Part shown: in pieces, positions 3,383 to 56,190 of the stretch | Position numbering within the stretch: the stretch's first letter is position 1 | How the letters are laid out: each line of letters begins with the position of its first letter | Assembly: GCA_003971905.1 (NCBI GenBank) | Contig: RSEE01000026.1 | Span: forward strand, 124,001 to 188,000 | Direction of reading: 5' to 3' | Source: Moniliella sp. 'wahieum' | Lineage: Eukaryota; Basidiomycota; Moniliellomycetes; Moniliellales; Moniliellaceae | Length of the DNA stretch: 64,000 bases | Program-made: the position numbers and the translations under genes | Notes under the pieces: model-generated | What the model was told of the DNA's origin: nothing | The model's database searches: none | Seen by the model: only the letters and a program-made list of their open reading frames with translations

Positions 3383-3460
3383 CATGCATGCATCATGCTT
3401 CATGCACCATGACATGCATGACGTTTCACGTTTCACAATTTACAAGTTACATTTCACATT
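3383..3460. repeat. Degenerate ATGCAT/TTTCAC short-word array
   Basis: Successive overlapping words (CATCATGCATGCATCATGC, then GACATGCATGACG, then repeated GTTTCAC and ACATTTCAC). It is one member of the palindrome-bearing heptamer arrays found throughout this window. Confidence 0.7.
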
Positions 3461-3600
3461 TCGATGCCATACGCAACAAATCAGTCGAAATTGGCCCTTC
3501 GGCGATCTGGAGGCCGCAGGCGAACACAACGATATATAGCCAAACGGGCCCACCGCCTCAAGTCCAATCCTTCCTCAACGTCCACGGTCGAGCCCGCTTC

Positions 3601-9599: not shown

Positions 9600-9650
9600 G
9601 AGCTTGAAGAGCTTGAAGCTTGAAGTGTGTGCCTTCAAGCTTCAAGCTTC
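9600..9650. repeat. AAGCTT heptamer array arranged as an inverted repeat
   Basis: GAGCTTGAAGCTTGAAG on the left and CTTCAAGCTTCAAGCTTC on the right, separated by about 8 bp. The strand could fold into a hairpin. Confidence 0.75.
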
Positions 9651-9964
9651 ACTGTCGTACCGTCGCCGGCGACTGTCCCTCGCACTCGCCAACTATCACC
9701 CATGAACATCACATGCCGCGCTTGGCTGGCATGCCCGCCCGGCGCCAGGTCTTACATTGGCCCTGCCCTGCTCTGCCCGCTCTGCCCCAGGCACAGCGCT
9801 GTCACATCCGCTCGCTTTTTTTTAGTCGGCAAGACAGCCTCTGTGCCTCGATATGCCGGAAGCGATCTGCGGAATCATTAATCCCAGGACCTCCCCCAAT
9901 AGAAATGACTTCCTCCTCGTCTGACTTCCCCGTCGGCACCCTTGGGCCCTACAGCACACTTCCG

Positions 9965-10145
9965 TCTGCCTCGGGCCTCAGCCTCACTAGCACTGCCTCA
10001 GGCCTCACCGGCCTCACCAGCCTTAGCGCCTCAGCGCCTCAGCCTCACCTGCTGTGAACGGCGGTTGAACGTGTACTGAGTAATACACTGAGTACTGAGT
10101 GTACTGACGAAGTGTACTGAGTACGAAGGAGTACTGCACACTCAC
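9965..10145. repeat. CTCAG and AGTACT short-unit arrays
   Basis: Runs of GCCTCA(G/C) units (about 9965-10050) pass into units of ACTGAGT/GTACTGAGTACT (about 10070-10145). Both are degenerate and contain palindromic cores. Confidence 0.65.
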
Positions 10146-16849: not shown

Positions 16850-16877
16850 ATGACTAGTGACTAGTGACTAGTGACTG
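16850..16877. repeat. (GTGACTA)n tandem array
   Basis: Three to four perfect copies of a 7-bp unit containing the ACTAGT palindrome (GACTAGTGACTAGTGACTAG). Confidence 0.9.
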
Positions 16878-23248: not shown

Positions 23249-25108
23249 TCACGCAAAGGAGGCGGCGCAGAAAGGGTCGTCCTCATGAACCGGATCCACT
23301 TGGAGGGGGTATGGCAACGGCGGCATTTGAAGCTTGGACACGGGCGGGAAGTGGGTTTCCAAGGCGAGGCTAGGCACAGCGGATGAATGGGCGCGGCGGT
23401 GGCCGCATTTTTCCCGAAAAGGGGCGTGAGAGAGGGCAGGAAATTGGTAGCTTGGCGGAAGACTGTCCAAGCCTGACACTCCTGAGATGCCTAGACCGTT
23501 TGAAAAGAAGCGTGGAGAACTGTCTTGCTCGGTTAGTGTGGGCTCTGCGTGTGGCTCGGGCAGATCCGCCAAGGGCAAGGGGGGTGGCAAGGGAGATGGC
23601 TCACTGCTCGCGCACCCAGGCAGTGAGGGAGAAAGCGCAGGCAATTCCAGCTCATTCCTCCAGATGGGACGGGAGGGCCCGAGAGCATTCAGCTCCGTCT
23701 CCACGTTGCAAAGGAAATCGAGGTCAATCAAGGGTTGACACTCGGCCTCCTCTTCTTCCGATTGGGGATATACCCGCATCGTTGCCTGTCTCTTGAGGCA
23801 TTCCACCTTGTGCAACGCAGCCGCACTGAGGACCACGGCGCCTTCCAGCTCCGTCTGGGTCCTCCCTAGGTCCGACGAAGGGGATCCAGAAGAACGGCAA
23901 GAGGTGTCTCCTCTTCCTCCACATCCAGCGGGGTACTCTCCTCGATGACTTCGACTGGAAAACGAAAACGGACCGACTTTCCGTTTCTGCCCCATGAGCG
24001 ATCCGAACTGATCAACACGGTTTGCGTCTCGGCTTGCTTTAACGCCAAAGCCAACTCGGGGTCATCTCTCAGCCGAGCCGTCACGGGCGTAGGTGTGGGG
24101 GATGCCCCCAAAGCAGCGCTCAAGGTGTGCAGTTCAAGCCTCGGAGACGGCAACGGAGAGAGATCTCGCGAGTGAGGCAAAACAGGGGAAGCAGAGGGGA
24201 GGCTAAGGTAGCTTGGTCTTGCGAATCCGGCCCGGGCCCATTTGGGCCCATAAGCCCATTCAATGCAGCCTGGACTGAGCGATGGGCGCATTCTGCGTCC
24301 ACAGGAGCACGAAGCGAGATGGAGAGATTGACACTTTGAGTGTGGCGTCGGAAAGGACGCGAGCGTGACATCCCTGCTCCAGAGACGGGTGTAGGTGTAG
24401 GTGAAAGCGAAGCATTGGTATTTGTCCCCGGCACGAGTCCTGCTGGCACGCGGGGAAAACAGAAGGGGTAGATGAAGGTTTACCAAACGAGAATTGAGAC
24501 AGGCGGGTCTGTTCGTCAGTTTGTACGTCCTTGTGGACTCTCATGCTGTGAAGTGGTGGGTGTCGGCTGCAAAGTCCAGTCAGCACCGTTTTCCAGCAAT
24601 GAGAGTGTACCCCTTACCTGAGATCGTGGGAAAGACCAGCCACGCACTCCAGTAGGGCGAGTAGGCGTTGGGGCAGTAACAATGGGAACTGGTATAGGGT
24701 CCGAGTTTTGCAAACCAACTGGCCTTGGGGCGATGGCGAAGATGAAAGGTGGGTGGAGACACCAGAAGGTGCAAGTGATGGAGCAGCCAAAGGCAAGGCG
24801 GCAAAGGTGCGCGACTGAGAGCGGGAATGGGAGCGTTGGTGGGGTGGAGGACGAGTGAGAAAAGGAGGGGTGGTCGAAGAAGCTTGGAAGTTGTGTTCGG
24901 TTGGAGGTTCAGGCCGAGTCGGCAGCTGCAGTAATGTTGCTGACATCGCGGGTCACATCGAGCAAGGCACTGGATGAGGGCAGGGAGGTGGATGGAAGCA
25001 GGCGGTTGAGGGAGTGCGGGTTGAGCGTCTGGGCCCGGCGGTGGCGGCTGTGAGGCCGGTGCGGTGGGTGATGACACGAGTGGGCGAATGTGGAGATGGT
25101 TGCTCCAT
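23249..25108 (-). CDS. Large Pro/Ser-rich disordered protein, unrecognised
   Basis: Start at 25108 gives MEQPSPHSPTRVITHRTGL; a 51-bp intron (24567-24617, GTAAGG...TTTGCAG) follows FPRSQ. Downstream, across frames, are low-complexity Ser/Pro/Thr segments, a more ordered block (LRDDPELALALKQAETQTVL then GRNGKSVRFRFPVEVIEEST, about 23930-24090), an acidic stretch (SEEEEAECQPLIDLDFL) and the end VDPVHEDDPFCAASFA at 23249. Short basic-aromatic and acidic motifs like KSVRFRFPVEV resemble linear docking motifs of regulatory proteins. No enzyme domain is visible. At least three frame changes are needed. Convergent with the Mbp1-like gene. Confidence 0.6.
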
Positions 25109-25854
25109 CGTCAGTTCATCCGCGGACCCCACGGCCTGTGAGAAGAGATGGGACGAAGCAGGACGGAGGTGGTTAATAGGTGGGAAGATGGGGTTGCTGC
25201 TGCCAGGAAAAGCGTTGAGGGTGTTGGGTGAGGGGAGCAGTATGGGGGCATGATGGTGGGAGTGGTGGACGACCAGTTGGATGTGGCTGGATGGACCAGG
25301 CACAATAATTCAAGTCCTTCGGAGCATCTACTGCCGGGGCAAAAGCATCACATGTCGCTCTGCGGGATGATCGAGAGGTCAATCATTAATCATTAACCAT
25401 CGATCTCCCTTTCGATCATCGATCGATCTTCTGCATCAGTAGGTACATCCATACGTCAGTACACTCAGTACTGAACTACTGAACCATTGCAGTAGATGCT
25501 GGCGGATGTGGCCTGGGGCCTGTGGGGGGATGGAGAGTAGGTCGCGAAGAAAAACACCTACTAGTATGCTGGGGCACCAGCAAACCGCCAGCCAGCCCCT
25601 TGGATCGGCAGGGCGGCAGAACCGCAGTAAAACATTTTAGCGTTGCGAGACACCGCTACGCACATCCTCTCCCCCTAGGCCCGGCGCTGGCCTACTCCTG
25701 CGCCTGCCGCAGTGGGGATTGGATAGTGGAGCGTGCAATCTGCGATGCTTAATGCAATCGACCCCACGCCACGCCTGGTGCAAGCGTGACATGGACATTG
25801 CTGGTGGGGCGCGTGCACTGAGTGAGTATAAGTACTTGCTGAGTCCGTTCATTC

Positions 25855-25990
25855 AACCTCAACGTCAACGTTCAACGTTCAACCTCACTGCCTCCGTTGC
25901 GCATACACCTCCCCATAGCGTGTAGTAGCAGCAGTTCCTAATGGCGTGTGACATGTGACATGTGACGCGTGACATGTGACATGTGACACT
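25855..25990. repeat. AACGTT array followed by (GTGACAT)n array
   Basis: TCAACGTCAACGTTCAACGTTCAAC (about 25858-25882, partly) and then four to five GTGACAT units with one GTGACGC variant (about 25946-25987). Both have 7-bp periods with palindromic cores. Confidence 0.85.
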
Positions 25991-26137
25991 GAGATCGATG
26001 AGAGGTTGAGTGCACTCCATGGGAGCATTTCATATTGATCGATGATCGATGATCTCGTCGATCACGCATCATATATCATGCATCATGTCGATCATGCCAT
26101 CGAGTTCAGCCGCTCATATTCTTACTCCATGGATGGT

Positions 26138-26192
26138 CGATGGGCAGCGCTTGGCGCTTGCTTGCTTGGTGCTTGCTTGCTTGGTGCTTGAT
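26138..26192. repeat. GCTTGCTTG(G/C) short tandem array
   Basis: Two near-identical copies of a GGTGCTTGCTTGCTT unit of about 16 bp. Confidence 0.75.
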
Positions 26193-28079
26193 GAGACACT
26201 CCCCATCCTTCGCTTGCGCAGCGCCCCCGTCTCTCTTCAACACACCTGCAGGCAGTAGATGTTTGATGGTGATGCGGTAATGCAGGTGCATGGAATGGTT
26301 GATGAAGCTATGAAGGATGGATCGGAGGACAAGTGAACAAAATGATGCCTCCACCTCAGGCCTCAGGCCCCTCAGGCCAAGCGCAACGGGGCCGTGCTCC
26401 ATAGCCTTCCATGGCCCCAAAGTGCCCTTCCTGCTGCACGCTTGTGTGCCTCCAACGCCAGCTATGCCCAGCGCCCCGCCCACACGACAGCCGCTTTGTT
26501 ATTCTGCTGGCGTTGCAATACACAAGCTTATTCCTCCATCATTCATCACGCATCATGCATCGGCTAGTGACCAAGTGACGTAGTGCCTGGCGACTGAAAC
26601 CGGATCTACCTCTCTTAAGCTTTAAGCTTTACTGTAAGCTTTACACCGATCCGCCCCCCCTGTCCAAGCAAGGCAGTCTATCCAGCGCTCGGCTCCCAAT
26701 TTAACCGCAGTGCTCCCTAGTGCCTCTTGCTGATCCTCTGTGACCCCATGCTTCGTGTACCACGCATCACATGTATCATCGATTAATAATTGATCATCGA
26801 TCATCCACCATTGCATCCGCATCACGCGCCACGCGTCAGATCGGCCAGAGCGGCAAATACGATCGGAAGCAGGCGGAAGCTGCCCGCGTGCTGTGCCCAG
26901 TGTAACATGTGATCAGCACCGACAAGCCACGGGAGCAGTCCGCTCGGTGCTGGCGCTGCGGGCTTCTGCTGGACCCAGAAACTTCAAGGCACTGGATCGG
27001 CGCAAGTCGCAGTAGACAGGAACCCGCTCGGCGGTGCTGTCGTTTCTGTCGGTGTGGTGGATATGGCACAGCTCTTCCTTTCCTCTGTAACATGTAACCT
27101 CTCCGTTGGTCACCAATCGGACCCAGAAACTATAAACAGATGCACCTGACCGGACTGCTCTTTTGAGCTCTACCAACAACCAATCGTTAAACGATCCTTA
27201 TAAACACGAGCCTCAGAACCTTCCGCTCACCACACCGCGAGGACTGCACCTATGGCGTCTCCAAGTGCCTCAGAGAACGCTGCTCAGCCTGAGCGCTTGG
27301 CACATGTCAACACGTCCAACGTTCAACACTACGCTCACTCAATGTTTAACACGTTTAACCCTCCGTGTCGCTTGTGTCGCATGTGTCAACGTGATCATCG
27401 ATCATCGATCAACATCAAACAGCGGCTGGATTTTTTTCCACAGCTCATTAGGTGATTTCCACAGTGCCGTGGCCACAGAGAGACAACACTAAGGCCATTA
27501 AACCGGCTATTAACCGTTTTAAGTTGCTGTTTTGGCCAGAGGGAGTTTTCAAGATCTCACAACCCCACCTATTAAGGCCTAAGATCTAACCGGCATGATC
27601 ATTTCGGCTGTTCGGGGGCCTCCCGCAGCCTCAAAACACCACTTAATAGGGTGTCTAGGTTCTCTCTGTTGCGTTAAACAGAGTATACTGCAACTGTTAC
27701 TACCAACCCATATCCTCTCTTTTTTGGCTGGAAATCCAAAGCGGGGTCGTTGTCGGTCCACAGCATACAGCTTTTTACCAGGCCAACGGCGACGCTAATA
27801 TAGCGATGCAACTGTTGAGATTGGATTGCCATCATGTGTGTTTTCTGATGTATCACCTTCGGGTACGCCGGACGCGCCTCCTACGTTCCCAATCGCGCAG
27901 CGTGCGGTCCACCTCCATTCCTGATCCTCCGATTGATCCAGGTCCCATCACGCAGGAGTCAGTGCGCATTGCCTTCCTCCCACACCTCGTCTCATCCACT
28001 TCTTCCACGGTGGGCTCGTTGTGGATGTGGGTGTCGGGATGGAGCGCATGAGATGAAGAACGGCTCCGCCTGCTTCATG

Positions 28080-29000
28080 TAATGCACCAAACTTGGACTG
28101 GGTGCGGGTGCAGCTATGATGTGCTCAAGCAAGGACATGCTGCTCGTGGAGCAGGACCGCGTGCGGAGCTGCAAACCAATCTTGACCTGCTTTTATCGCT
28201 GAGCCGGAGGCATGGGGCTGCGACGGAGTTGAGGAGATCCAAGTGTGGTAGAGCTGCTTGCTGTTGCCGACCACGTTGCGACAATCGCCATCGTCAAACT
28301 TCTGGAGCATGTCGAAGCGATCATCCTTTGTACTTTGGGGGTCCTTATCGGCCCGGTTCCGTCTGAACTCCTTTCAGAACCATCAAAATCGGCCAGCATC
28401 GTCCAACTCGCCCTCGATCTGCATGTTTCGGAGCAGGTGGGGCAGCTTAGTCTGAGTACTGTGCCGCCATAGTAAGAGGCGTCCCTCACGGATGATGCCA
28501 TCAACTTTGGGCATGTCCTGCCTCAGGTTGGCAAGTGAGCCACGATCGGCGACAATCCACCCCTCCCACTCACACGTACCCACTGTACCTAGAGTCCATC
28601 TTCCCGAATCAGCTCCCAGTCTCGCTCGCTCGACGCTTGCGCAATTGAGTGCGAGGTCTGACGTGCCGTCTTCCAAAATTTCCGCAGCTCGGCCGTAATT
28701 CCTGGTTCTTGTCCGAAAAATGGTAATGTCATCCAGGTACGCCATCACAGTGCCTCAGCGGCAACTTCTCCTTTCTGCAATTGAGAAGAAAACCAGGGCG
28801 AGGGGATCGCCCTGCCGGATGTCCTCGCCGACACAACACCCGTCTCATTCCCGTCCGACACGACCCAAAGCTGGGTGTGAAACCATGATCCACCAGCCCA
28901 AAGAAAGGAGATGGACAAAATGATGGAGTGCGTTGGCGAGCATGCGACGGCTCACAGTGTTGAAAGTGTTGTGGTAACATCGAGCACTGGAATAGAGAAC
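28080..29000 (-). mobile_element. Decayed LINE-like (non-LTR) reverse transcriptase fragment
   Basis: On the minus strand, two RT catalytic-core motifs lie in the right order and spacing: EDIRQGDPLALVFFSIA (about 28778-28828, the RQGDPLSPxLF motif of non-LTR elements) and MAYLDDITIF (about 28720-28748, the YxDD active site). They are followed by about 600 bp that still reads protein-like in pieces (for example QKFDDGDCRNVVGNSKQLYH). Stops and frame changes interrupt the region; no endonuclease, RNase H, poly-A or target-site duplication was identified. A LINE-type RT is favoured because of the QGDPL motif. Limits are approximate. Confidence 0.6.
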
Positions 29001-30427
29001 ATGGGGCATTACCTCTATTACGGTTTGTCACTCACTGGATTTTACGCGACTACGGGGTTGTGGCTAGTGTGATGGGGGTAAAGGTTACCCCCAGTCTCCA
29101 CATCCTCATCATACGGGTTGAATACAACTGATCCACAAGAAGAGACGCCCGATATATATATGTGGAAAGCAAATCTGCTTGCGATTCCCATACATAGTAT
29201 GTGGTCTAAGGCACGTGGCCTCTCGCGCCAGTGTATAAATAAGGAAGATCCACTAGCCACGTGGCTCATTTATAGGAGAGCGAGAAGATGAGGTGGTCTT
29301 TTTGCGTCGTATTGTGGAGCCGATCAGGCTGATCGATGATCTCTCTTCCTATATACATCCAGCCCATCAGGCCCATGAGGCCTGAGGTGTCCTTATTGGA
29401 TGCCACGTGTCTCAACAGAGCTTAAGCCTTCAAGCTACTGTTCAAGCTTCAAGGAAGAAAAAAAGGGGCAGAGGGAGCGTGAAGAGAAGGACAGAGTGGA
29501 AGATGCACTCGCACATCATGCATCAACGTAGAAAAAGTATAAGCCGCATATTAGCCGTGCCTATACTATTAGTATTTTTGTATGTAAGTGTGGCTTATTG
29601 TTTCTGTATGCTGTGTTGGGAACCTTCTCCCACACGTGCGTGGTCACACAACATACATTGTGATCTTGATGAAGTTGAGATGGAGATACGGACCACATTG
29701 CATACAAGTCAAGGTGTCTTTCTCTTCATTACGCGTTACGTTCATCCACATCCCATATGCCCCCACTCTTCCGTCGGGAGGCGCAAGCTCGAGCGACTAC
29801 ACACACATACATAATGCGCTGTTCTCGGAAGAAAACAGCGACGCAGAAAGCTGCTGCTCGGTCACCCATATGGTCATGCATGGGTCGTGCGCATTTGCCC
29901 ACCAATGCTTTGGCCGTGTGCTCTTGCCACAGTGTGGAGCAGATAAGATAGGGTCTCTCGGCGGGTTCTGCCCTGCTCTGCCCTGCTCTGCCCCCGTGCT
30001 CGCGTCAAAAGCTTCGAGTGAACTGCGGTGTGGACAGTCCCGCCGTGCCGGATGTGCAGCCAGCACTTGCCAAGCCAAATCCAGCCATCACCCATCCGTC
30101 ACCCATCGCTGCGACCAATCGTGGCGCGATTCAGCCAACTATAGATGGAAGCACACGCTCGCACATGCACGCACTAGCAGCGGCACTGCATCCAATATTC
30201 ATACTTACCGCAGCCGCAGTACGGCCATGTGGGATTATATCGCTTTCCCCCATTCACAAGCCTCAAGGTGACATTCAAGGCCCCCCACATCGTCTTACCT
30301 AGGCCATACCGCGTCGCCTCCACATCTCCACCACACTCGATCAGTACGACCCAGTCCCAAAGGAATGCACACTAATAATAGACTCTCGTCGGTGTTTCCT
30401 GTCGCCTTGTCTTCTTGCCCCACCATC

Positions 30428-32404
30428 ATGTCGGAGTCCATCCACCACTCTGCGAGTCCGTCAGACAAGTCCCAGCTCCCCGACAGCGGATATGTCCCCA
30501 CCACACTCTACGACTCTCATGCCGCTCTCGCAGCAGCCGCGACGGATGAACAGGCCGACTTGGATGACAAAGTCTTATTCGACGAGAAGGTAGAGGTGAA
30601 AGTAACAAGTTGGACCAATTCGCAGGCAAGGTTCGGAGCTATGGCGATTTGTCTGGCGTGGATCCCGAGCTGGCCAAGACGCTCTTTGACCAAGATAATG
30701 TTCGAGAAGCGTTCACCTCCCGCCAACTTGCTATGATATCCTTGGCTGGTACGTCCCTTTCCTCTCTATTTGGCATAGTGTAGACGTCAGGCATTCATCA
30801 AATTAACCACAACCGGGGCAGGTTCTGTCGGGACGGGTGTTTTCCTTGGTGTGGGAAGGGCCTTGGCAACTGCTGGACCTCTTTCACTTTTGCTAGGATA
30901 CTTGATTGTGGGAGTGTTTGCCTGTTCGATGCTCTTCTGTCAAGCCGAGGTACGTTAGCCTCTCCCATCTGTATTCTGCGATGCAAAGCCTGACCCGTCC
31001 AGCTTTCCACGTTGGCACCAGTGAGCGGGTTCTATGTTCGCCACAGCGTATGTTTGTATCCAAGGGACTGGCATTTGCTAGTGGTTGGGCCATGCTGTAC
31101 GGTAACTTTGTCAGCCTTCCGGCAGAGTTTACGGCGGCAGCAGCGTTGGTCCAATACTGGAACGATAGCATCTCTCCGGCCGTGTTTATTACCATCTTTG
31201 GCGTCGTTCTCCTTGCAACCAATTTGACCTTCACGCGTCTTTACAGCGAGACGGAGTACGCCTTCTCCATCGTCAAACTCACAACTGCTATTGGCCTTGT
31301 CATATTCTGCATTTGTTTGGACCTTGGAGCCGGTCCCCATGGCCACATGACCGGTTTCCAGTACTGGCGCAATCCGGGCCCGATGGCTGAGTACTTGCTC
31401 AAGGGCGCCAGAGGTCGCTGGTTCGGTTTTGGTACACGCTCACCAACGCTGCGTACAGTTACCAAGGGATTGAAACCATCTGCGCTGCGGCAGCTGAAAC
31501 GCGCAACCCACGCCAGGCATTACCTCGTGCCGCCAAGCGCGTATTTATCCGCGTAGGAGGGATTTACATTTTGCTTGTTTTCTGTGTCGGCTTGGTGGTC
31601 CCTACACTGATTCTCGTCTTGTCAACTCGTCCGGTACAGCCTCGGCATCCCCCTATGTCATTGCTGCCTCCAACGCAGGTGTCAAAGTGTTGCCCTCAAT
31701 TCTCAACGCAGTCTGTATCACATCTGCGTATAGCTCCGGTGCGGCAGGTACGCTTGCTGCGTCCCGCTCCGCAATGGCCCTGGCCAACATGGGATTTGCT
31801 CCCAAGGCGTTTCTCAAGACCCATCGGTGGGGTGTGCCTTGGGTGGCGGTACTGGTTGTCACTGCGGGCTTCCCCTTGGGGTACACGGTGGTGAGCTCAA
31901 GTGCAACGCAAGTGTTTGGGTACTTGCAGAGTGTCGTCTCATCGCTTGCCTTGTACCAGTGGGTGGTCACATGCATCATTTTTCTGCGTGTGTATTACGC
32001 CATGCGTGCCCAAGGGATTCCCGTTCTCCCTGCCATGGCAAAGCTGGTTCCAGCCGTATCTGGCCTGGATCGGACTGCTGGGTCCTCTTTCTGTCTCTTG
32101 ACAGGGGTTTTGAGTTCTTTGTGACAGGCAATCAGGAGCCCCAAACATTCATCTCAGCCTATTGCTGCCCAATCGTCAATGTGCTTGTTTGTTGGGGTAC
32201 AAGTTTCACTGGAACACCCCTGTGGATCCCACTCAGCGAAGTCCCCATCCAACCGTGGATTACCCAGTTCCGCCAGAACCCGGAGCCGCTAGAGCCGAAA
32301 CCTACGGGTTGGATTCGTTTCGTGAGCTGGATCTGGTTTTGATGATACCCTTGCCCACTCATTGCAGTGTCATGAGGATGTACGGCATGACCTCCGGATC
32401 ATGA
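30428..32404 (+). CDS. Amino-acid permease (APC/AAT family)
   Basis: Proton-coupled amino-acid uptake at the plasma membrane. Starts MSESIHHSASPSDKSQ at 30428 with a hydrophilic cytosolic N-terminus, then SRQLAMISLAG before an intron (about 30749-30821, GTACGT...GGGGCAG) and GSVGTGVFLGVGRAL, the family's first helix. A second intron (about 30951-31001, GTACGT...GTCCAG) precedes LSTLAPVSG. Further blocks are NFVSLPAEFTAAAALVQYW, TRLYSETEYAFSIVKL, NAAYSYQGIETICAAAAET with NPRQALPRAAKRV, GFAPKAFLKTHRWGVPW and ALYQWVVTCIIFLRV. About 12 membrane helices are expected. Frame changes lie near 31040, 31420, 31610, 32050 and 32200. The end at 32404 is provisional, since ETYGLDSFRELDLV may be close to the true C-terminus. 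Substrate cannot be read from sequence. Confidence 0.9.
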
Positions 32405-33271
32405 TAGGAGTGACCGAAGGATGGTCTTGCATATACGTCCCCTCTTTCATTTTTTTACGTTCAACGTTCACACTTCCAATGCTCAACAGTTTCGGTGCCG
32501 GGCACCATCACTGTTTGTCCTTCTATAATGTGCACAAGCACCACACCGCAGACAAACTGAAGGGTGCAACTTTTCCCCCGACCTCCCTTTTATAGAAGGT
32601 AGCTCCGTGCCGCTTCCCACCCGGATTGATGCATCGCGGCGCAAAGCAATTTGTGAGGTGGCAAGGACGGTCTTCGAAGAGCTGCTAGGGTGTAGAACTG
32701 ATCATATACATCGTACGTACCGAAAACGAGACCGTTTTCTCTTCGGAATGCGAGCTATGAATAGGTGAGAAGAGAGTAGTCAGCACAAAAGGCGAGGGCC
32801 ATGGGGAGGTATTATTTCTCTCTTAGATTTGAGTTGAGAGAGACATCCACCAAAAAGGGGCACGGCTAACGTCCAAACCACTCTTTGCCATAGCCAATCG
32901 CCGATATTCTGCCTCGTATACTACCAGATGTGAGCGAAGAACCCACACTCCTAATAAGGGTTCCGGTTCACACCACCATCATATCCCGTTTGCTAACCGT
33001 ACTCTGCTGACAGTTGCGCCCACAGTGTAGTGATCGATATGAAGACAACATGCGACAATTCATCAACCAAAAAGGATGGAGAAGCAATATACATACGCTC
33101 ATCGCCCATTCAAGCTAAAGGGCAACCCCCGAAACCAGTCTGTCCCATACCTGCCGGGTAGGTATAGAGGCGTACATGCAGAGTGTGGCTGAATGAAACG
33201 TGTAAACGCGAATAATACAATGCGGGAGTGCGTTCACCTCCTCCTGGGACGGACAGTGAGCACACCATGGT
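32405..33271. other. Intergenic, convergent gene ends
   Basis: Between the 3' ends of the permease (+) and the Smr protein (-). Nothing gene-like seen. Confidence 0.55.
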
Positions 33272-35477
33272 TTACATCATAGTGGTACCCTTCCCGGTCC
33301 AGAGCGCCATAATGTTGGGTTTGATGACTGCAACGTTCTTGGGCGAGTGTCGACCTACACCCGTAATAATCTGCAGGTCACCCTTACCTGTCCTGCCCTG
33401 GCTCGTGTGTCCCAATCCCGCAACAAGTCTCTCGTCACCGCCATGGCCTCAGTGAGAGAGAGGTGGTGGAGATCAATCACCTCACCCGTTGGCTGGAGGA
33501 ATGGTTGACGTGACCCCCGTCTTGGCGCATGGCAACCAACGCATGGGCGGCCCGTGCACTCCATAACTTGATTTCTGCATCCAGCTCCTGAGCGCGCTGG
33601 GCATGGTGTGCGCTGGCACCCCCCCGGGCCAAATTGGCCGCCTTGCCCTTAACTCCAGGGCCTTTGCCCGAATGCGCAGCAGCTGCAGACTGAAGCGCCT
33701 CAGTACGAGCCTTACGCGCCGTGGCCTCCATCTGCCTGCACTGTTCGTACGTGTACCCCCCACTGCCTCCCCCGGGTGAACTCGAGGGTTGGCGCGCCGC
33801 CACAGCCGCAGGCACGCCCAGCGTCTGTGGCCCTGCCGCTGCCGATGGTAGCGATACGATCGGGGCTCGGGAGAGCTTGTCCAACAGCGTCTCCTCCTCT
33901 TCGCGGGCTACCTTACTGCCTGATCGACCAGAGAAGGTACCATTGTGCTTCTTGCCCGTGAAAGTAAAGGCGCCCTCACCTGGCTTGACTTGCTTTACCA
34001 CTCGCACAGAGGGTGCATCGACACGGACGAAATCGGCGCCAGTAGGGTCCGAGTTGCCCTTCTCGTTCGTGGACACGGTGGAAAGCCCAATCGCGGGCGG
34101 GCCATCGTTCAGTAGCTTCATTAGTGATACTGTGCCGTGTGCGTACGCTCTAAGAGATGCGCAAGTGTTGGGTCGGCAAGTCCAAGTCCGAGCCAGCCTG
34201 CATCGGGAAGCTCTTGGGGGGCACGACCGGTTGCTTTGCGCCAGCCGTGTACGGACTTTAACAGGTTCAGCAGGTCAAGCGCCTCGTCCTCCTGCGCTCG
34301 CACAGCGCGAAACACTACGCCCGCCAACTGCACAGGTTGTGCTACCATCGCAGCCAGGACGTGTACCTCGGGACTCCACTCTTTCCCTTGGGGGGAATTT
34401 TGGCGCAATTTGACGGGGCCTTCTCGGAGGAAGAGTGGACCACCACACGCACAGTCTCAGCCAAGTCCAGTCCAAATTTTCGATAGGTCACAGAAGGGCT
34501 TTCCTCCATGCCTGTTCGGGAGGGGGAAGGAGAGAGCCGAGTTGGTCAAGGATGGAGGAAGCGAAAGCCCACTCATTGTCCGTAACAAGTTTGCCCGTAT
34601 TGCTCGCTCCCAGGGACTGGGCCGGTGGGTCGGGCTCCGACGACAGACGAAGCGCAAACGCTTCGTCTGACTCCCCCTCCTGTGCCACGAGGGAGGAGGA
34701 TGAAGGCAAATCAGTTCCCTTGACGAGTTTTTCTGCTTTCCCCTTTCTGGACTGGCCCTTTCCCTTCGGCTTGGGGAGGGCCAAATCTGTCCCGCCTTGC
34801 CTTACATTCCCCATACGAACCACGGTGGCACCCTTCTTCTTCTTCTTGAAGACTTGCGAACGCGCATCACCGCCCCCTCCAACTGACATGGCAGGCGAAG
34901 TGATGCGGGGAGACTGGGGGGGGACAGGTGGACAGCCGACCGGCGAAGCCAGGGATGATGGAAGGGACGACTGAGGCGGTATCGGCGAAGTGAGAGCTGA
35001 CGAACTCTGACTTACAAGATAAGGGGACTGCGCCGAGGAAGATGAGACACTGGTGTCCAAAACAAGCGGGCTGCGCTGGGTTTGCGCAGCCCGGCGGGAT
35101 GACGCAGTAGGAAGGTGTATGGGCCGCATGGGGACCGCATCCAGTTCTTGTTCCCCTTCTGCATCTTCAGATTCTTGCACAGAAGAAGAAGAAGGAGATC
35201 TCGGTGATGCGGCGCCAGCTCCCTCTTGGGCGGCGAAGAGGATATCGAGGGCGGCGTTGAAGTCGCCATGGGCGGTAGCGAGGGCGTCCTCAAGGACGTC
35301 GAGGGGGTGTTCAGGGAAGACTGTGAGGAGAGAGACCAAAGCGTCGGAGCTGGCTTCGGCTTCAAACTCGCTGATGGTATGGCTCTGCTCAGGCGCATCA
35401 GACGGGGATGCCGGAGGTTGGAGCGCATTCTCGAGTTGCAGCTGCTGTGTTTGCTGGACTAGCTCGGCGCTTTCCAC
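33272..35477 (-). CDS. CUE domain + DUF1771 + Smr domain protein
   Basis: Smr-domain proteins are putative nucleic-acid nucleases; the eukaryotic CUE-DUF1771-Smr group is linked to translation quality control and no-go decay (Cue2/N4BP2-like). Start MESAELVQQTQQLQLEN at 35477. A CUE/UBA-like segment (about residues 45-85) reads VFPEHPLDVLEDALATAHGD; a long Ser/Pro-rich linker with KKKKKG follows. DUF1771 is at about 33520-33750 (TYEQCRQMEATARKARTEAL). The Smr core is VIDLHHLSLTEAMAV (about 33440-33480) and IITGVGRHSPKN (about 33330-33370). The usual DLHG is DLHH here, and the xGxG loop is TGVGRHS. Frame changes occur near 34490, 34130, 33490 and 33380. About 700 residues, within range for the group. 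Confidence 0.85.
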
Positions 35478-36484
35478 GTGCGCCTGGCGGGTGCGGGGCG
35501 TTGAGGCCAGTCAGCACTGCGGCCACGGAGGTGGTGGGAATTCTCCGGGGTCATCTGTGTGCTTTCGGGTCGGTGGAAAGGCACTTCATGTGCTCGCGAC
35601 GGTAGCATTGGTTGGTTGAAGGTTGATGCCGGTTCGGGGGCGCCGATGGAACAGCCGGGGGCGCTCGGTAGTGGGCGCTCGAAGCTCAAAGCGCAAATTG
35701 CTGCCAGAGAACGCAAGTGGCTTGAAAATCAAACTTGAACGTTCAACGTTCACGCGTCACGCGCCACGGGTCCCTCTCCCCCACCCTCCACGTGATAGCG
35801 CCTGATTGAAACAAGGAGCGTGTGATGATGTCGATGGCAGCCGCCTGCGCCTCTCGGGCATTCCTACCCTCTCTCGTCCCATGGCCTTGGAAGGGTCTGA
35901 GATCTGTCGGGAGTGGCGTTGCTGGGCTGCTGGCAGTCGGCAGTCTTTCTGCCCCGCCAGCAAACACCTTACTTTCCTGCCGCCACCCCTCACGTTCCTA
36001 GCATCACCGCCATCTCTGTTTGCGGCTGGTAAGAGCAATTAGGGGCCGCTGGGAAACTCTCCGGAATAAAAACAGTGCTGAACTCTTTCTTGTCGATCCT
36101 TTTCGATAGATCCCGAGATGATGAGACCCCCCCCTACTCTCCGCTTGTGAACTGACGAAGAGTCGATGACCCCGTCGTGCAATAAGTGGTAGGTGAATCC
36201 ACTTTTGAAAACACTGTGACTGTGTTGAGGCCGGCGATGAGGCACCATAACTTCAAACAGGAAATGTCCGATCCCGTTTCGCTCAATCTATACCCGTCCA
36301 TGAACTGCATGAACGTTTTGAACGACGGGGCATCAAGTGTGCCTGCAATCGCTGACCCGACCAATTACAACCAATCCCATCATGCCTTACGATTTGAAAA
36401 GAATTCTTGTAAATGATGGAAATGCACACACACATTTGCTGTTGGCAGAACGGTGAATGAGGAGAGCGATTGCAGATGGGCGCA
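35478..36484. other. Intergenic
   Basis: About 1 kb between two minus-strand genes. Holds AACGTTCAACGTTCACGCGTCACGCG words (about 35737-35765, broken) and nothing gene-like. Promoter of the Smr gene is expected at its left end, 3' end of nothing else. Confidence 0.5.
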
Positions 36485-38607: not shown

Positions 38608-39175
38608 TGTGACATGGTGGGGGGGCGGGGTTAGTATATGCGGGGAAAAACGGAGTGCGTAGACGGCATGCGCTGCGTACCCGGGCGCATGCTGACGGCC
38701 GCTGGCCGCATCCATCGCGCGGTGGGAGTGCGTGAAGCGGGTGGTGGGAGGAGAAGCGCAACCGCACAGCAGAGCCCGAGCGGATTCGGACGATTCGGAG
38801 CCCGCTCGGCGGGTTGGCGGTCGCCTGCAGGGGGGACGGGCGGTGCTTCCACGGATCTGCTCCACGTGCTTGGCTGTCGCTCGCCCCGCCGCACCGCGCC
38901 AGTGTTGTGCTCTGCTGAGGTAATTGCTTCCACCTCCGACCCGGGTTTTCAGCTGAGCGGGCCGCTTCAGCTTCATCGAGCTTCACCATGCATCATGCAT
39001 CATGCACCATCTGTCTGCATCATCCATCATGCATCATGCCAGCCGCTGGCCAGCGTTGAGCGTGTTGAACGTTCAAAAACCCACCGGCGTCTACACGCGG
39101 CTCTCAACCCTCCGAGGAGGAACACAGTCGCACCAGAGTCCCGTCCTTTCGCCCTGCAGCCGCCCCGCCCTCTGG
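38608..39175. other. Divergent promoter region with ATGCAT array
   Basis: Separates the NAPE-PLD-like gene (-) from the histidine phosphatase (+). It contains a CATCATGCATCATGCA array and one GTTGAACGTTC word near 39065. Confidence 0.55.
38985..39043. repeat. (ATGCATC)n degenerate array
   Basis: ACCATGCATCATGCATCATG followed after about 15 bp by CATCCATCATGCATCATGC. The unit is 7 bp with an ATGCAT palindrome. Confidence 0.85.
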
Positions 39176-52210: not shown

Positions 52211-53162
52211 GGCAGGGCGCAGGAATGACGATGGGTGGGGGTGGAGGTGGCAGTGGAGGTGGAGATGGAGGTGGAGGTGGAGATGGAGGTGGAGGTGGCG
52301 GTGGAGGTGCAAGTGGCGGGAGTGGGGGCGGGGGTTACAGGGGGGGGCGGTCCAAGTCGACGAGGGGACGGGGCAAGAGCGGCGAGAGAGCGAGAGTGGG
52401 GAGACCGACCCAAGACGACTCGGAGTATGCAGCACCGCAGCGCACAACCTGGGCACAGCCCAGCCTTGTGCGATGTGAGATCTGGGATCCGAGTATGGGC
52501 GTCTGAGTACCGAGCACTGAGTCTAGCCTGGCCGGCCCATTCGCCGCTGCATAATGCGTGCTGGGTGCTGGGTGCTGGGTGCTGCCTGCTGCATGGGCTG
52601 CACCCGCCTCATGCCCACCCAGCCCCCCCCCATCGCGTGCCCTCTGATGCCCCCGCCTACCCCGCCCGCCCCCGAGCCAGAGGAAGCACGACCAGGACGC
52701 ACAGCACAGAGGCAGTCTAGGAAGCCCCCCAGCAGCCAAACGCGCTGCCCCCAACTCCCGCACCACACCTGTGGGGGCGGCCCAGCCAGGCAGAGAGCTG
52801 CCCTGTGCCTGGATGCCGCCGTCGCAATGTCACATGTCACAAGTCACAGGTCGCCCGCCTAACATCCGCATCACCCATTAGGCGCTCGTCTACATGCATC
52901 AGCCATCAGTACTTAGTGACTAGAGTGACTAGTGAGTAAAGCTAGTAACTCCTCAGCGCCTCAGCGCCTCGGCGCAGCTCTATACGCAGTCCACATGTCC
53001 ACACAGTGCCCCTCCCTGCCTGCACAATGTGGGCGGCTTGGGGAAGCCAGTTTATTACGTAGGCACTCTGCGGCTGTCCTTGGCATCATCGATCATCGAT
53101 CATTCGATCATCGGCCAGCGCTGCACGAAGAATTGCACGATGCAAGAGACGGCCGGAGAATT
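52211..53162. other. Intergenic with microsatellites
   Basis: GGAGGT/GGAGAT trinucleotide-hexamer tract (about 52228-52310) just upstream of the kinase, GTGCTGG triplicate (about 52558-52582), GTGACTAG and GCGCCTCA words (about 52915-52975). No gene seen; the kinase N-terminus could start further right if frame changes are allowed. Confidence 0.5.
52228..52310. repeat. (GGAGGT)n-like microsatellite
   Basis: Imperfect GGTGGA/GATGGA hexamer units over about 80 bp, immediately 5' of the chosen kinase start. Confidence 0.85.
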
Positions 53163-53940: not shown

Positions 53941-55147
53941 CTACAAGCCGTCATCTTCGGTGTCAGAGGAAGAGTCTCGGAGTTGGGTGAGCACTGAGGT
54001 CCAGATGCGGTCACACCCAGAGTAAAAGATGCGGTCTTGGCGCCTGTGCAGGGCCGAGGGTGTGTAGAAGAGACAAATGAGTACTAGCTGTGACGACAGA
54101 GAAATGCGGCCAAGGAGAAGGAGAAGGAGCATCTCTTAGAAGATTGATGTGTACCATGATTCTTGTCAGGAGACGGAGATGGGGGAAAGGGGCAGATGGA
54201 TTGCATACATCTATGGACGCAGAGGAGGTATATGACCTCCTCAGGAAGGGGCACAGTCGAGAGGTGGACACAGGATCTCCCAACTGATAGGAATCACGCC
54301 ATAGTGCCCATACGGGCCTAGTGGGCAAGGGCCCCCTAGCACGGGTGATTCTGACAGAAGACGATTGTAAGGGGGGGGGGGTGGTCTCCACCACGGTTGC
54401 GCTTTTGTGATATCCGGGAATTCGTCATGGCTACCTAGAGCTTATGGATCCAACGACCATATATAATCAGTTAGGCAACCGCACCCTGGAGATTACCCAT
54501 CGTAACAGGAGAGGATAGAGATGGGGGAAGGATGAGGATCATATTCATATAGTGGAAAGGGAGGGAGGTATATATGCCTCGGAGAAGAAGAGAACATGCG
54601 AGCTAAATCACATGGAGGGAGGGAAAGGGAGCACGATCCAAAGGGTAAAACAAGGTCTTTGTCATGGGGGGGTCCCGAGATGAGATCCCCCCCTGTAGTT
54701 TAGGGGTATAATATAAACCCTTGGACAGATCAATCGGTGGCTCGTACGTTAGGTCCTGCTCCAGATCCTGGTTGAACCGAATGGGCGTACTAGAGGCGAG
54801 GGAGAGATCCACTAGTTTGGGTGGCTGCCTGCGTGCAAAGGCCGCAGTCCAGACCCTCCGAGGTAGGAGCCGCGTACTTAGGTCGTTAGACCAGCTGAAG
54901 GGGTCCAGGAGCTCCGAAGTTATCCTCTGTTCCACCACACTCGGTACGCTGTAGCTGGCGGGAACAGACAGAGTCCTAAAGAAGAGCAAGCGCTACTGAT
55001 GAGAGTAACGGCGGCTTGCAGTGCACTCGACGTAAGTCGTAAATTCGTAAGCGTAAGGGTGGCAGAAGGTAGAAGGGTGAGAGAGGAACTGATAGTGGGG
55101 GAGCAAAGGTAGAAGACAGGATGGTCGACAAGGACCACCGCTAGCAA
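53941..55147 (-). CDS. Coding-like region, unrecognised protein, possibly broken
   Basis: The minus strand reads protein-like over 1.2 kb in several frames: VVLVDHPVFYLCSPTISS, SVPSVVEQRITSELLDPFSW (about 54900-54960), FARRQPPKLVDLSLASSTPI, DLEQDLTYEPPIDLSKGLYY, then after stops SRLCPFLRRSYTSSASIDV and an ending RRQDRIFYSGCDRIWTSVL at 53941. I recognise no family. It lies inside the inverted repeat pair, so an element-borne or fossil gene is possible; so is an unannotated host gene with errors. Confidence 0.35.
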
Positions 55148-56190
55148 GCCTTAGACATGGCTGCTTATATACAGCAGAAGGAACCAGGCCTCAAGTGCCT
55201 CATGACAGGTATAGACAGAATGCGGGACACTTCCCAGAGAGGTAAAGACTAATTCACAGCCCTTGCTTTCCAAGGTGCTGACGCTGCGTAGTCGGGCGCA
55301 GCAGGAAAGGTTCTATCAAGACTGGACGCAATGGACACAAAGATCGTATCGATAAGCCATGCGACCATGGCGGGCCGCGGATGATATCGGCAGCAATGAT
55401 AAGGTGTCGAACCGGCTCTCTCTCGCTAATCTAACCGGACTGACGCGTGTTGGGCTGAGATGTCTACGACATGCGGGGCTCAGCGTCCGGAGATAACCGG
55501 AGCGCCCGTAACAGCAGTCTAGAACAAATCAAGGGGGCCAGACAACTTGGTGACAAGAACGTGATCAGTGAGTCTGATCCCGACAAACTGTAGAATGCCA
55601 GAGAGCAGGAAGTTGATGGTGCATTGTTGCGTTTGCACATGAGCTACTAACAGGAGGCTACAGAACATTCCTGCCCGCCAAGAAGGAATATTATTGCAGG
55701 AATGAGAGAACGCGAAGGTTCCGGGCTTGAGCTAACCGCGCCACTACACAGCGTGGCGTCACAAGAAAGCCTCCTTGTGCAGACTGACTCTCTGGTCTCA
55801 GTTCTCTCAGTTCTCAGAAGTTCCACACTTTGGCGTTTACATGTTTACAGCGCCCCGCCCTGCTGGATGGGCCTGTGGAGAGACGCCAATTAAAATTAAC
55901 CCCGGACTCCCTAAGACATCATTTATCACCCATCACCGGTCACCATCATCGACTATGTATCAGCGTCACCTGTCATAATGCTTGATCTCAGAGGTCACCG
56001 GTCACCGGCCGGACACCCGCACATCTCAGGTGACTAGTGACGCGGACGAGAGATGATCGATGATCGATGACTAGGACTACTAGGACTAGAGATAGTGATT
56101 GCCACTGCGTGGTGCATGTGCCGATGCATGGATCGCGTTCAGATCGCGGCCCGATGTTCAAAGGCTTTTCTGCACGGCAAAATGAAAAAT
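55148..56190. other. Intergenic with a family A repeat
   Basis: Holds copy 3 of family A (55597-55755) and GATCATCGATCATCGATG words (about 56050-56070). No gene seen. Confidence 0.55.
55597..55755. repeat. Dispersed repeat family A, copy 3
   Basis: GCCAGAGAGCAGGAAG, GCACATGAGCTAC, CTGCCCGCCAAGAAGGA and a terminal GCTAACCGCGCCACTAC. The reverse complement of the end, GTAGTGGCGCGGTTAGC, resembles a tRNA D-arm/A-box. Best-preserved copy of the three for that part. Confidence 0.7.

Follow-up and report, generated by a model that had tools for sequence, protein, structure and literature searches.

Gene-free DNA of the genome studied here contains numerous arrays of 7-bp units that follow one rule: TNA, a 4-bp palindrome, and the same TNA again. 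The data point to a regular, previously undescribed mutational process that builds these repeat arrays. It is proposed that the arrays are accumulated products of a site-directed insertion, which occurs at TNA and takes its template from the flanking bases, most likely via a tiny hairpin; we give this reading a probability of about 55%. Most units are neither products of plain slippage nor binding sites.

Palindromic cores between identical TNA triplets

The window, i.e., the whole 64,000-nucleotide stretch analysed, is bases 124001-188000 of contig 26 in a eukaryotic assembly of 69.5 Mb and 223 contigs. The initial annotation described intergenic arrays consisting of a 6-bp palindrome plus one base, and this observation was confirmed and is stronger than first described. 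Period 7 is prominent among exact tandem arrays: with a poly-G run excluded, 45 such arrays of at least 14 bp were found in the window, and 33 of them contain a 6-bp palindrome plus one base, versus one to five arrays, none of them palindromic, in each of five surrogates matched for dinucleotide statistics. The sites named in the initial annotation carry AAGCTT (9610-9651 and 26615-26631), AGTACT (10087-10100), ACTAGT (16851-16876), ATGCAT (38987-39039), and AACGTT and ACATGT together with ACGCGT (25865-25988). At 3383-3460, ATGCAT words are present, but the arrays passing the cut-off there, ACGTTTC (3421-3436) and ACATTTC (3449-3462), are not palindromic.

The excess over dinucleotide-matched sequence, on which the initial annotation had made the pattern depend, was found also outside the window. 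Twenty 10-kb stretches from 13 contigs (200 kb) contained 122 arrays, 54 of them palindromic, versus 9-14 and 0-2 in surrogates, and the motif TCA-N4-TCA-N4-TCA-N4-TCA occurs 6448 times on both strands of the 69.5 Mb, versus 1198 for the reversed control. Two long heptamer arrays without palindromes, GCACCAA (L009:9014-9123) and GACACAG (L027:5257-5357), are of a different kind. The pattern was read from a single assembly and could in principle be an artefact of assembly or sequencing; this is the least credible of the explanations considered, with at least four palindromic TNA units in 17 of the 20 stretches outside the window, units in various states of decay, and many units common to two diverged copies of one locus.

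The 87 palindromic arrays of the window and the 200 kb use 14 different palindromic words, all of the form A....T, with C or G as the odd base in 77 arrays and T or A in 10. TNA followed by a 4-bp palindrome describes the unit better than a 6-bp palindrome with one added base. The main counting sample was 264 kb, i.e., the window and loci L009-L028; L001-L008 were omitted from the counts because they had been fetched via an array word. In this sample, the N4 between two identical TNA triplets is palindromic in 216 of 409 cases (TGA 94/168, TCA 91/173, TAA 16/33, TTA 15/35), versus 400 of 7111 for the other 60 flanking triplets together; ATG, the best triplet outside TNA, reaches 23/166, and order-3 surrogates give 3-8 palindromic cores among 113-129 TNA-N4-TNA sites. 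Of the XnY flank classes, only TnA is rich in palindromes, the 15 others ranging from 1.7 to 8%. The middle base has to agree on both sides, as pairs of TNA and TMA, with M differing from N, enclose palindromic cores in only 28 of 245 cases. Four is the sole core length in clear excess among single-unit lengths of 2-10: lengths 2, 3, 5, 6, 7, 9, 10 and 12 are near chance, length 8 is slightly above it (4/143), and length 11 (41/235) corresponds to two units. Among 85 events, the T and A enclosing N are the only fixed bases, with no other position clearly off background (largest chi-square 7.5), and a target preference beyond TNA was rejected. Near-matches with one outer base changed exist and suggest decayed units. 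The T-A symmetry of TNA makes the exact break points ambiguous.

Arrays of the window include the following (listed without strand; cores in lower case):

9610..9651: two AAGCTT-based arrays, 9610-9625 with spacer G and 9633-9651 with spacer C
16851..16876: TGA-ctag array (TGACTAG), word ACTAGT
25949..25986: TGA array in which the cores switch, TGA-catg-TGA-catg-TGA-cgcg-TGA-catg-TGA-catg-TGA; its leftmost core agrees with the left flank (tg) and its rightmost core with the right flank (ca)
26069..26085: TCA-tata-TCA-tgca-TCA, two differing cores
26354..26369: TCA-ggcc array (CCTCAGG), exact tandem array
26615..26643: TTA-agct units (TTAAGCT), word AAGCTT; the exact array part is 26615-26631
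27393..27411: TCA-tcga array (GATCATC), exact tandem array
38987..39039: TCA-tgca arrays (ATGCATC), word ATGCAT
53085..53113: TCA-tcga array (ATCATCG), exact tandem array

The initial annotation held that different words sharing one design would not arise by ordinary slippage, and the palindromes indeed switch within single arrays. Among 36 multi-core chains, 27 are homogeneous and nine mix palindromes with a constant N, e.g., TCA-gatc-TCA-gatc-TCA-cgcg-TCA or TAA-acgt-TAA-ccgg-TAA-ccgg-TAA; within mixed pairs, neighbouring units differ in the inner four bases but share the odd base and the outer A/T. Pairs of 6-bp palindromes spaced 7 bp apart are in excess when the words are identical (62 versus 0.7 expected) and also when two A....T words differ (16 versus 1.7 at 7 bp, 14 versus 0.3 at 14 bp). 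Plain replication slippage or tandem duplication of chance palindromic heptamers, hairpin-aided as with triplet repeats, is improbable as an explanation of such arrays. It cannot make cores that switch while N stays constant, it leaves the restriction to TnA flanks unexplained, and the exact 7-mer duplications centred on TNA comprise 66 with a palindromic core and only nine without. What slippage does account for is seen in the comparison of locus copies below.

The arrays were described from the start as lying in gene-free DNA, which agrees with the distribution of units in the window: 65 in the 35.9 kb outside long ORFs and four in the 28.1 kb of long ORFs. This scarcity probably reflects selection against 7-bp frameshifts, and an insertion process combined with such selection would leave the units mostly outside long ORFs. 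A Pfam scan of ten long ORFs in the window returned clear matches for four (RhoGAP, histidine phosphatase, LtrA, sugar transporter) and weak matches for two; the phosphatase ORF is similar to fungal phytases. A eukaryotic rDNA unit was found elsewhere in the same genome. Its rRNA spacer looks fungal, perhaps from an early-diverging lineage, and the genome is taken to be fungal. There are 14 rDNA (5.8S) loci, with varying scores, on 13 contigs (C2, C6, C21, C33, C37, C39, C41, C83, C89, C103, C137, C178, C195), at least eight of which lie no more than 3 kb from the end of a contig; they are perhaps dispersed subtelomeric rDNA. The excess of palindromic units, about 200 in 264 kb (about 0.8 per kb), extrapolates to roughly 50,000 genome-wide.

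Two interpretations were offered in the initial annotation, a mechanism generating palindrome-centred repeats and protein-binding sites. The first is supported by the switching palindromes and by the single events between copies described below; the second is not. Selected protein-binding sites, or structured RNA elements, would fit the palindromic form of the units and their position in the window, for the most part outside long ORFs. However, the cores are many (14 words), no conserved recognition word was found, nothing but the T and A on either side of N is invariant, and sites that deviate from the unit at one outer base point to decay. Strand-wise clustering was also rejected, as neighbouring events show no clear order of orientation (41 same, 31 different). 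Together with the gain of units in copies of a dispersed repeat, these data make selected sites a very improbable explanation.

Flank templating and single insertion events

What the initial annotation did not contain is the TNA-NNnn-TNA unit itself, the constancy of N along an array, and the dependence of the palindrome, in most cases, on the flanking dinucleotide. Among 133 single-core chains, half of the core equals the adjoining outer dinucleotide in 115 (left only 36, right only 49, both 30), and 18 match neither flank; the chance of a match was roughly estimated as about 12% for either side. In six of the nine mixed chains, both ends agree with their flanks, the first core with the left and the last core with the right. 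A site a2a1-TNA-b1b2 is thus usually extended by a unit copied from a2a1 or b1b2. With TNA sites outside ORFs of at least 150 aa as background, copied dinucleotides of A/T only are depleted (three versus 16.8 expected, binomial p = 2.7e-5), which supports physical pairing, as a base-paired intermediate predicts. Those with a strong inner and a weak outer base are in excess (39 versus 25.3), and all-G/C dinucleotides are near expectation and not in excess (20 versus 23.4), a point against the proposed process.

Single events can be observed between homologous copies. Window 23800-36123 has a second copy at C15:866001-879400, about 12 kb long and 95-97% identical without gaps, and many units are common to both. 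The two may represent haplotypes, homeologs or a segmental duplication. Homology in C15 stops about 165 bp from an LTR-like repeat copy. The features that differ between copies, and the repeat used as a clock, are the following:

25859..25883: TCA-acgt array; the homologous copy on contig C15 is shorter by one 7-bp unit
26036..26054: TGA-tcga array; the C15 copy is shorter by one unit
27573..27589: TAA-ggcc-TAA-gatc-TAA; C15 has a single TAA, without the gatc-TAA unit (27583-27589), and the gatc core matches neither flank
29330..29339: TGA-tcga-TGA; a single TGA in the C15 copy
29516..29525: TCA-tgca-TCA; a single TCA in the C15 copy
35743..35759: TCA-acgt-TCA-cgcg-TCA; the left core matches the left flank and the right core the right flank, and this site has 25 bp more in the C15 copy
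54659..55515, plus strand: one copy of the dispersed, LTR-like 858-bp repeat that served as a clock; units were gained in other copies (L051, L054, L058)

The alignment of the window with C15 contains ten 7-bp indels and two 6-bp indels, and 8-bp indels are absent; end gaps of 67 and 617 bases are untrimmed overhangs, not indels. Six of the ten are canonical, i.e., TNA in one copy corresponds to TNA-NNnn-TNA in the other (+7 bp), and four do not fit. Three of the canonical indels lengthen or shorten an existing array by a single unit, showing that slippage or re-use of a site also acts. The other three do not copy a neighbour: TAA to TAA-gatc-TAA, TCA to TCA-tgca-TCA, and, in the C15 copy, TGA to TGA-ggcc-TGA. 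The last of these (window 35799) follows a stretch alike at six of seven bases, so that a near-copy is possible. BLAST self-comparison, restricted to alignments of at least 200 bp and at least 78% identity (35 repeat pairs; duplicates L004, L005 and L031 excluded), gave 14, 8, 15 and 5 indels of 5, 6, 7 and 8 bp, respectively. Of the seven-bp rows, 11 are canonical, including double counts where loci overlap, and they add a fourth distinct new event, TCA-tcga-TCA. The core matches a flank in three of the four new events; the gatc event matches none and joins the 18 single units as an exception to templating. Such gains at a lone TNA, with a core that was absent before and not copied from a neighbouring unit, already contradict slippage as the whole story. 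Another dispersed repeat, at window 27844-28740 (L033-L040), has 39 further matches listed at 72-85% identity and is perhaps an old retroelement fragment.

The direction of change was settled with the 858-bp repeat, which has LTR-like TG...CA (TGT...ACA) ends and 37 other copies listed besides that of the window; the copies look like solo LTRs of a recent retrotransposon. Twenty-two copies were compared, i.e., the window's own, a shorter one in L041 and 20 more (L041-L061 besides the window), with 466 substitutions and a mean difference of 2.5% from the majority. Relative to the family, two 7-bp insertions (L054, L058) and one of 14 bp (L051) are present; they are the sole insertions of 7 or 14 bp, and all are canonical, which shows that the units are gains. 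Their cores come from the left (L054), right (L058) and left (L051) flank. No 6- or 8-bp insertion and no 7-bp deletion was found in the 22 copies, and the insertions of 4, 5, 9 and 10 bp that are present are not canonical. The rate is three insertion sites (four units) per 466 substitutions. At the L051 site, the family has TCG and the copy TCA, so a prior point change to TCA may have been needed. The 10-bp insertion of L050 (C24:80435-81315) is irregular; in its context, TGAAGCTAGTTGAAT, the insertion is like a canonical unit with three extra bases, and it is possibly an irregular product of the same insertion process.

A proposed hairpin-templated insertion and a rival transposon footprint

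In most cases, the growth shown leads from a2a1-TNA-b1b2 to a2a1-TNA-[a1'a2'a2a1]-TNA-b1b2 or to a2a1-TNA-[b1b2b2'b1']-TNA-b1b2, where primes denote complements, with 7 bp added per unit. TNA is copied unchanged, with N kept, and the 4-bp palindrome consists of two bases from one side and their complements. We infer a tiny hairpin as the intermediate from which the new stretch arises. The end of a strand beside TNA would fold back and two bases would be copied from its own neighbours; on this route, a 7-nt hairpin, a2a1-TNA-a1'a2', would be extruded, sealed and later replicated. Alternatively, a 7-nt staggered cut centred on TNA might yield hairpin ends that are opened two bases off the tip, similarly to the origin of P nucleotides. 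Rejoining would duplicate TNA and the next replication would fix the insertion. If the same TNA or one of its new copies is hit again, and slippage also acts, homogeneous arrays could result, and a left-flank event followed or preceded by a right-flank one could give arrays with two cores. It may be speculated that a sequence-specific enzyme, transposase-like or nickase-like, sets both the TNA preference and the fixed two-base length.

The exactness of the product (seven bases per unit, a four-base core, N kept) and the flank templating require a fixed geometry. Little variety of junctions and the scarcity of non-palindromic duplications argue against ordinary end joining, and the near-absence of junction variety argues in the same way against a break-and-rejoin route. 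Polymerase snap-back should copy varying numbers of bases, which is at odds with the fixed two-base copying. The most stable 3-base hairpin loop is GnA, and GnA flanks are not enriched for palindromic cores (34/461); the site must therefore depend on more than the stability of a hairpin. We favour a putative enzyme specific for TNA, acting together with copying through a hairpin, whatever the order of the steps.

The most serious competitor of such an insertion is a set of excision footprints, left by a cut-and-paste transposon with a 7-bp NN-TNA-NN target duplication. The flanking ends would be sealed as hairpins and then opened two bases behind the tip. Each end would bring the 7-bp target with it, the joining of 4-base palindromic overhangs would give a left or a right palindrome, and core halves derived from the flanks, as in the 115 of 133 chains, are what hairpin footprints lead one to expect. 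This geometry has precedents: P-nucleotide insertions occur among Ac/Ds footprints in Candida albicans and have been attributed to hairpins (PMC5873905), Artemis usually opens hairpins at 2 nt (PMC3528771), and fungal hAT7 and Kyakuja elements produce 7-bp duplications (PMC12730594). One match to DRMBL (Pso2/Artemis family) was found in the genome, weak but above the cut-off (E 1.3e-4). Nevertheless, the Ac/Ds footprints in Candida are varied, with 28 kinds among 128 (PMC5873905), whereas here one product dominates, without the deletions and differing palindrome lengths of such junctions. No excess of TNA-flanked inverted-repeat elements was found in the 264 kb, although elements without inverted repeats would escape this count, and no element was met in a TNA site within the fully read 0.4% of the genome. 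Searches of the genome for PIF, MULE, hAT dimer and KDZ domains gave no matches, those for hAT and KDZ being silent also in control genomes. Excision footprints are rated unlikely, though well ahead of slippage. Cores as ends of TNA-inserting, PIF/Harbinger-like elements were rejected: that idea predicts a few fixed words, and the cores follow the flanks, with no excess of terminal inverted repeats in the 264 kb.

The more specific form of the insertion reading, a transposon-free machine acting genome-wide that recognises T-N-A, copies two neighbours via a 7-nt mini-hairpin and inserts exactly 7 bp, is put forward tentatively, at somewhat less than even odds.

Relation to known systems and consequences

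The initial annotation knew of no named repeat class with this rule, and a search of the PMC full-text literature, outside of which lie most subscription papers and bioRxiv preprints, found no class or paper with the TNA rule. In 50 kb of E. coli, palindromic TNA cores (7/48) are somewhat above its other triplets (45/663) and far below 53%. Eleven IMG/VR loci gave 28/152, but 23 of the 28 carry the core of a searched word. The 7-bp period is shared with ordinary heptanucleotide repeats, such as the intergenic STRR of cyanobacteria. Arrays of TCAAGCT are present in many Pseudomonas and other bacteria (at least 120 stretches), and the nearby DNA lacks the TNA rule: in the 80 listed loci (L074-L153), chosen for a homogeneous array (631 kb), TNA-palindrome-TNA outside that array is no commoner than chance predicts (19/278).

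In PIF/Harbinger or IS1031-like insertion, TNA is likewise a 3-bp target duplication; here, unlike in a PIF/Harbinger footprint, the 4-bp insert mostly matches the flank, 14 words occur among 87 arrays, and the PIF domain search was empty. P nucleotides of V(D)J joining (RAG hairpins, Artemis) are similar in being short, palindromic and complementary to the end that they adjoin, usually with two nucleotides added (PMC3528771); they differ from the present events, which have a fixed length, duplicate TNA as well and are spread over the sampled genome of a fungus-like organism. The hairpin-explained palindromic changes at the join of hAT (Ac/Ds) excision in fungi and plants (PMC5873905) are also alike, whereas one dominant product with a four-base core is found here, no element was seen, and the hAT dimer search, silent in controls too, had no match.

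If a transposon-free machine of this kind exists, it would constitute a self-seeding mutational signature, with tens of thousands of units by extrapolation, that shapes intergenic DNA. To our knowledge, insertion mutations are otherwise slippage copies, transposon footprints or untidy products of end joining. The 7-bp gains seen here are dominated by one product of fixed length, made at a target of three bases and usually templated by the flank; the resulting arrays resemble microsatellites but are not microsatellites. A process so frequent should have an enzyme that can be found by genetics and biochemistry, and it offers a concrete route to asking how new short tandem repeats and palindromes originate.
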